Shown here in pieces: positions 52,022-52,417 of a DNA stretch of 64,000 nt (position 1 is the stretch's first letter; each line of letters begins with the position of its first letter). A program made the position numbers and the translations under genes. Below the pieces are notes generated by a model that saw only the letters and a list, made by a program, of their open reading frames with translations, was not told the origin of the DNA and made no database searches. This DNA comes from Thomasclavelia spiroformis DSM 1552. Its GTDB lineage: Bacteria > Bacillota_I > Bacilli_A > Erysipelotrichales > Coprobacillaceae. The stretch spans positions 124,001-188,000 of the forward strand of contig NZ_CP102275.1 in NCBI RefSeq assembly GCF_025149465.1. Direction: 5' to 3'.

Positions 52022-52059
52022 TTGATTAAAGACTGCTGTAATTAAAATAACAAAATATT

Positions 52060-52097
52060 ACCAGAAGTAAGATAAATATATCTTCTTCTGGTTTTTA
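52060..52097 (+). terminator. Terminator after nrdG
   Basis: ACCAGAAG (52060-52067) pairs with CTTCTGGT (52085-52092), extendable inward (AAGATA/TATCTT), followed by Ts. Confidence 0.9.
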
Positions 52098-52115
52098 ATT
52101 ATAGAAAAAGTATTC

Positions 52116-52144
52116 TTGAACCTAGATTTTTAAGAGTATATAAT
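52116..52144 (+). promoter_or_regulatory. Promoter of the candidate small RNA
   Basis: TTGAAC (52116-52121), 17-bp spacer, consensus TATAAT (52139-52144). Start site expected near 52151. No coding sequence or ribosome site follows at once. Confidence 0.75.
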
Positions 52145-52150
52145 ATAGAT

Positions 52151-52266
52151 GTTAATCATAGCTATAGTTAAAGAATCAAACGAAATTTTTCGTTTGATGA
52201 TTTGATTAGATGTTTTTAATCTCTTTAGCTATTATAGCTTTAGTAGGCGAATTTACGCCTTTTTCT
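52151..52266 (+). ncRNA. Candidate structured small RNA or cis-regulatory RNA
   Basis: A promoter leads into about 115 nt that can fold as a three-way junction. P1: 52160-52174 with 52222-52239 (AGCTATA...AAAGA with TCTTTAGC...TATAGCT, one bulge). P2: perfect 11-bp hairpin ATCAAACGAAA/TTTCGTTTGAT at 52175-52198. P3: GATTA/TAATC at 52204-52221. An intrinsic terminator follows: AGGCG (52245-52249), CGCCT (52256-52260), Ts to 52265. No open frame with a ribosome site spans it. It lies between nrdG and pssA, 150 bp before pssA, so a trans-acting RNA is as likely as a riboswitch. No known family was recognised. Confidence 0.55.
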
Positions 52267-52417
52267 TTTATAAGTCTTTTTATGATATACGTTGTTTTAA
52301 AAGTATTTTTAGTTATTATAAAAGGTTTATTTAAAAGACAAAATTTATATTAATGTACATTATTAGCTAAATATATGCTATACTATTTTTGTCAAAAAAA
52401 TTATAGGGAGTAGAAAA
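52267..52417 (+). promoter_or_regulatory. Leader region of pssA
   Basis: AT-rich spacer with a TATACT -10 candidate at 52379-52384 and a poor -35 box. GGGAG precedes the pssA ATG. Nothing else seen. Confidence 0.4.

Follow-up and report, generated by a model that had tools for sequence, protein, structure and literature searches.

A putative antisense RNA in the transposase gene ends of IS4-family insertion sequences and its solo remnant between nrdG and pssA of Thomasclavelia spiroformis DSM 1552

Introduction

In IS10, IS30 and IS200, transposase expression is lowered by antisense RNAs (PMC8450116). The one of IS30, RNA-C (Arini et al. 1997), is described as complementary to a part of the coding region at a distance from the start codon (PMC12323649, PMC8450116), and its action is reported to be confined to cis (PMC12323649). 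In gut metatranscriptomes, transposase genes show an enrichment of antisense transcription (PMC4555090). In the IS4 family, the IS4 subgroup is marked by a YREK motif, ends of the form -AATR--------WTW and target duplications of 10-13 bp; the word antisense is absent from the review of this family (PMC2266710).

The window, i.e. the whole stretch of DNA analysed here, comprises 64,000 nt of Thomasclavelia spiroformis DSM 1552, a member of the Thomasclavelia group with a complete genome of 2.53 Mb. The element copy at 52116-52266 of the window is referred to as the solo copy. A sequence-only reading had taken it for a candidate novel structured RNA in the gap between nrdG and pssA. The RNA gene appears to be present, but its owner was misjudged, as it is antisense to the C-terminus of an IS transposase. 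Homology, the transposase relic and the conservation of promoter, fold and terminator across the family were computed. In the reading that we favour (probability about 0.72), the RNA is an IS-encoded antisense regulator of transposase, and the solo copy is a remnant that keeps promoter, fold and terminator.

Results

Promoter, fold and terminator of the solo copy

In the solo copy a promoter-like pair is followed by a folded region and then by a terminator (Table 1). The promoter, earlier described as near-consensus, is present with a 10/12 match. Such matches abound in this AT-rich DNA (7 found locally, 10.7 expected from shuffles) and the match alone is therefore unremarkable; the predicted promoter is backed by homology to the IS promoter rather than by the match itself. 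The predicted transcript 52150-52266 folds at -34.8 kcal/mol, compared with -17.6 +/- 3.1 kcal/mol in shuffles (z -5.50), and neither here nor for 52116-52270 (z -3.99) was any shuffle equally good. Two terminator-like sites were found in 1.5 kb against 0.3 expected. The fold is real and beyond chance (z -4.0 to -5.5). Two details of the sequence-only reading needed correction. The P2 hairpin, described there as a perfect 11-bp stem, has 10 bp, and the region, said to hold no ORF, is overlapped at its end by a hydrophobic 47-aa ORF (52210-52353, plus strand) that covers the 3′ half of the RNA on the strand opposite to the transposase relic. This ORF is probably a chance occurrence; as a small protein or type I toxin it was rejected, since it has no ribosome site and runs opposite to the relic.

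Table 1. Features in and around the solo copy (positions in the window)
Feature	Position	Strand	Basis or remark
Decayed outer (inverted-repeat side) IS end, aligned to CAATGTCATTAAGTTAAG	52042..52059		Alignment; exact IS border of low confidence
IS-derived hairpin ACCAGAAG..CTTCTGGT with T tract	52060..52096		Sequence; alignment to IS
Antisense promoter, -35 TTGAAC, 17 nt, -10 TATAAT	52116..52144	+	Counterpart of IS TTGAAA-17-TATAAT
Predicted antisense RNA, ~115 nt	52150..52266	+	Fold z -5.50; covariance model R1
Transposase C-terminus relic, one frame	52152..52307	-	Translation compared with live transposase
5′ arms of P0 (52160-52164, 5 bp) and P1 (52165-52174, 10 bp)	52160..52174	+	Fold; P0 pairs with 52235-52239, P1 with 52222-52231
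P2 hairpin, 10 bp, 4-nt loop	52175..52198	+	Fold
P3 hairpin, 7 bp, 4-nt loop	52204..52221	+	Fold
3′ arms of P1 (52222-52231) and P0 (52235-52239)	52222..52239	+	Fold
Intrinsic terminator of antisense RNA	52245..52265	+	AGGCG-AATTTA-CGCCT-TTTTC
-10 of conserved native pssA promoter, outside IS relic	52379..52384	+	TATACT, kept in relatives without the element

Origin from the end of an IS4-family element

In a family-wide DNA search, the stretch 52105-52176 was found again at two other sites of the same genome and in other genomes. These sites are the 3′ ends of an insertion sequence encoding a 460-aa transposase, of which two intact copies lie elsewhere in the genome that carries the solo copy. 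On direct alignment, 52042-52289 matched IS positions 28-305 with 65% identity (E 5e-20). The transposase copies L044 and L031 scored 165.4 and 160.4 bits against NF033592 (cut-off 115), and the transposase also matches DDE_Tnp_1. A YREK motif, YNMRWGEETSFRELK, was located by inspection in the L044 transposase. At both ends of the copy L046, CAATGTCATTAAGTTAAG fits the -AATR--------WTW pattern, and no clear target duplication of 10-13 bp was seen there. By its sequence the parent element fits the IS4 subgroup of the IS4 family (PMC2266710).

The solo element is not an intact IS: only the last ~50 transposase codons are left, with two internal stops (52206-52208 and 52176-52178) and the natural stop retained at 52152-52154. 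The minus-strand translation of the relic is NTFKTTYIIKRLIKEKGVNSPTKAIIAKEIKNI*SNHQTKNFV*FFNYSYD*, to be compared with NFTRSVHIIREFLRKKGGKNPPVEHLIAKEILPIRPGRKYKRHVRPKTVVYFNYRYN* in the live copy; apart from the natural stop codon, the relic is disrupted by the two stops and short in-frame deletions. Judged on homology, what survives in the solo element is the 3′ end of an insertion sequence of the IS4 family.

Another broken copy in the same genome (G000:C1:2490055-2492974; L096, L142) scores 89.5 bits: its transposase is full of stops, but the promoter, fold and terminator of the antisense RNA can still be made out. A search of phage DNA gave no match to the element. Matches of 28 nt in two other genomes (G002, G007) did not extend beyond the P2 hairpin; their flanks are unrelated, and they were put down to chance.

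The nrdG-pssA locus in relatives

The element is missing upstream of pssA in T. cocleata, T. saccharogumia, VE202-01 and a fourth close relative. In all four, nrdG has its own terminator and is followed by pssA with a conserved promoter; in T. spiroformis the TATACT box of that promoter stands downstream of the solo-copy terminator. The native nrdG terminator of the relatives (AAAACTACC..GGTAGTTTT) is replaced here by the IS-derived hairpin terminator at 52060-52096, whose counterpart in the live IS comes after the transposase gene. Since relatives without the element keep both the nrdG terminator and the pssA promoter, the solo element is lineage-specific and not a pssA riboswitch. The proposal that it is native to the gap accordingly gives way to that of a transposon end.

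Other arrangements were seen before pssA. In three relatives (L008, L009 and L010) the gap has another promoter-like TATAAT stretch, ~150 nt long, with no match to the element, and in L014 a ~190-nt repeat that includes a hairpin (GGACAGGC..GCCTGTCC) lies in tandem copies directly upstream of the gene.

The antisense block in live elements

The comparison covered 22 live elements, no two of them 90% or more alike, whose transposases fall to as little as 31% identity. In the live IS, the promoter adjoining the transposase stop codon points back into the gene. A -10 box (at least 5 of 6 positions) is placed 6-11 nt before the stop codon in 16 of the 22 elements, where 2.1 were expected, and in 15 of the 22 the antisense-strand terminator within the coding end beats synonymous codon permutations (p 0.05 or less). 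The -10 box itself stands outside the transposase reading frame. The mean z of the antisense fold against synonymous shuffles is -2.07. The long-range P0/P1 pairing has 10-17 expected pairs compared with ~1-4 in synonymous shuffles in 11 of the 13 elements tested, nine of these 11 with p 0.03 or less. The 3′ arm of P1 is made by the codons ATA GCT AAA of the LIAKEI motif, and these are identical in 8/9 elements listed. As the RNA overlaps coding sequence, its conservation is partly protein-driven, and synonymous shuffles are the only control for this. Among the live elements tested, L068, L069, L080 and L082 are without parts of the promoter, fold and terminator set.

The antisense terminator lies ~127 nt into the gene in the closer clade and ~87 nt in, at the position of P3, in a distant clade (L055, L089-L094). 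In the distant IS4 relatives L055, L072 and L089-L094 the RNA would end ~40 nt earlier, a strong terminator standing in place of P3; this is terminator turnover within the coding sequence.

Covariation and strand

In an alignment of 12 sequences, 87.8% of cells pair on the antisense strand and 79.5% on the sense strand. Double changes occur in 11 cells, while shuffles gave 4.0 and slid controls never more than 7. Compensatory changes, for which a covariance check among relatives had been suggested, are thus present. They stem from P3 and the terminator; P1, being nearly invariant, yields no covariation itself. Wobble pairs number 42 cells on the antisense strand and 18 on the sense strand, and from this distribution the structure is shown, as far as the alignment goes, to belong to the antisense strand. 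With 19 mixed sequences RNAalifold gave almost no structure because of register shifts, and the 12-sequence set served better.

The RNA family and its range

A covariance model (R1) built from 12 live elements, with the solo copy left out, finds the solo copy with 58.6 bits (E 7.7e-11) over 52143-52270. Members were found in 28/295 genomes and 18 genera of the order Erysipelotrichales. No Rfam 15 family reached its gathering score in the window or in five IS loci, and relaxed thresholds gave chance microRNA-type matches only; the comparison with Rfam proposed earlier thus ended without a family. The earlier suggestion of a structured small RNA that stands by itself, with a promoter and a terminator of its own, is supported, as are the lack of an Rfam match and the compensatory changes among relatives.

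Relatives outside the order were drawn from Lactobacillales, Paenibacillus, another family of the class (G327) and E. coli IS4. Promoter and terminator were absent from IS1675 and from the E. faecalis, Paenibacillus, G327 and E. coli IS4 relatives, so the feature seems confined to elements of the order; attempts to extend the family beyond it, to IS1675, E. faecalis, Paenibacillus and E. coli IS4, found no members. In the open-licence literature no paper on an antisense RNA of IS1675 was found, and a description elsewhere is possible. The predicted IS-borne antisense RNA is apparently an undescribed family of a known kind, with the solo copy as its remnant.

Discussion

A model for the antisense RNA

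Transcription, pairing and repression are the steps that we infer. The promoter beside the transposase stop codon would fire backwards into the transposase gene and give an RNA of ~115-140 nt, antisense to the last ~45 transposase codons. This RNA would fold into a closing stem with two hairpins and end at the terminator within the coding sequence. Most likely it pairs with the 3′ part of the transposase mRNA, leading to a block in elongation or to exposure to RNase III. Head-on transcription could be an additional or alternative way of holding transposase expression down. Repression of this kind is suggested here by analogy, because the antisense RNAs of IS10, IS30 and IS200 act in that direction. 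If still transcribed, the solo copy could work in trans against both intact copies; a pairing energy of -67.7 kcal/mol is predicted for its RNA with the live transposase mRNA (shuffles, -37.7 +/- 4.1). Such a trans role is argued against by the reported cis-only action of RNA-C, the nearest analogue.

Alternative explanations

A riboswitch or attenuator in the pssA leader was suggested by the succession of promoter, junction, terminator and pssA, and it is very improbable: the element has homology to IS ends, it is not conserved in the pssA upstream regions of close relatives as the leader of a gene set would be, and pssA has its own conserved promoter beyond the terminator. The structure might instead act in the transposase mRNA or as DNA, the antisense RNA being incidental. 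The sense strand too folds better than synonymous shuffles (mean z -1.44), but it is on the antisense strand that the -10 box and the T tracts are conserved and that wobble pairs are in excess, which leaves this explanation improbable, though less so than the riboswitch.

Two further explanations concern the solo copy only, and both accept the IS antisense RNA family. There is an even chance that it is a dead relic: an IS end that broke recently, does nothing at present and owes its fold to a divergent live parent, with decay to follow. Further relics of this IS family are frequent, many of them having lost promoter, stem or terminator, and relatives have no copy at nrdG-pssA. Against this, the solo copy has the best fold of 11 relics (z -5.8; the rest -2.8 to +1.1), and promoter, fold energy and P1 were all kept in 1.5% of runs simulating neutral decay to two stops; these comparisons are biased, as the site was picked for its promising appearance, and the species is represented by one genome. 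Both internal stop codons also fall within perfect stems. The exceptional preservation and the strong predicted pairing would suit an RNA that the host kept as a trans silencer of the intact copies, or for another target, and small RNAs of an IS can become separated from its transposase, as seen with ssr9 of ISPpu9 (PMC8450116). This possibility is rather unlikely, given that it is based on one genome of the species, that IS30 RNA-C acts in cis (PMC12323649) and that ~65% identity to the live copies means many mismatches. Doubtful, and more so, is a host-kept immunity RNA in which a fragment of a dead IS silences living relatives in trans, within an undescribed family of at least 18 genera. 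We give a function of the solo copy about one chance in three: it is unusually well preserved, and its RNA is possibly still made and able to pair with the live IS mRNA.

Significance

The ends of IS4-family transposase genes seem to contain an apparently undescribed structured antisense RNA family, one stretch of DNA encoding a protein on one strand and a folded RNA with terminator on the other. It offers testable cases of transposon self-control from the 3′ end of the mRNA and of an antisense RNA outliving its transposon. Orphan structured intergenic RNAs may turn out to be relics of an IS, a point to examine before any other.

Comparison with known systems

The host element of the putative RNA is of the IS4 family, IS4 subgroup (PMC2266710; NF033592), although E. 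coli IS4 itself is without the antisense promoter and terminator. RNA-OUT of IS10 and art200 of IS200 are likewise short IS-encoded antisense RNAs that limit transposase, but they cover the translation start, whereas the RNA here covers the last ~45 codons. ISPpu9 also has small RNAs of its own, Asr9 and Ssr9, and ssr9 occurs apart from its transposase, as the solo copy does (PMC8450116); Asr9, however, pairs with the 5′ UTR and raises translation, in a different IS (PMC8450116). Nearest in layout is RNA-C, an IS-encoded antisense RNA that lowers transposase translation and whose place is in the coding part of the transposase gene, clear of the start codon. It belongs to an element of the IS30 family and no Rfam link between the two RNAs was found; the RNA described here would start at the stop codon, form a three-way junction and end at a terminator within the coding sequence. 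By analogy with these systems, the best reading is that of an IS-encoded antisense regulator of transposase which resembles IS30 RNA-C and forms a separate family.
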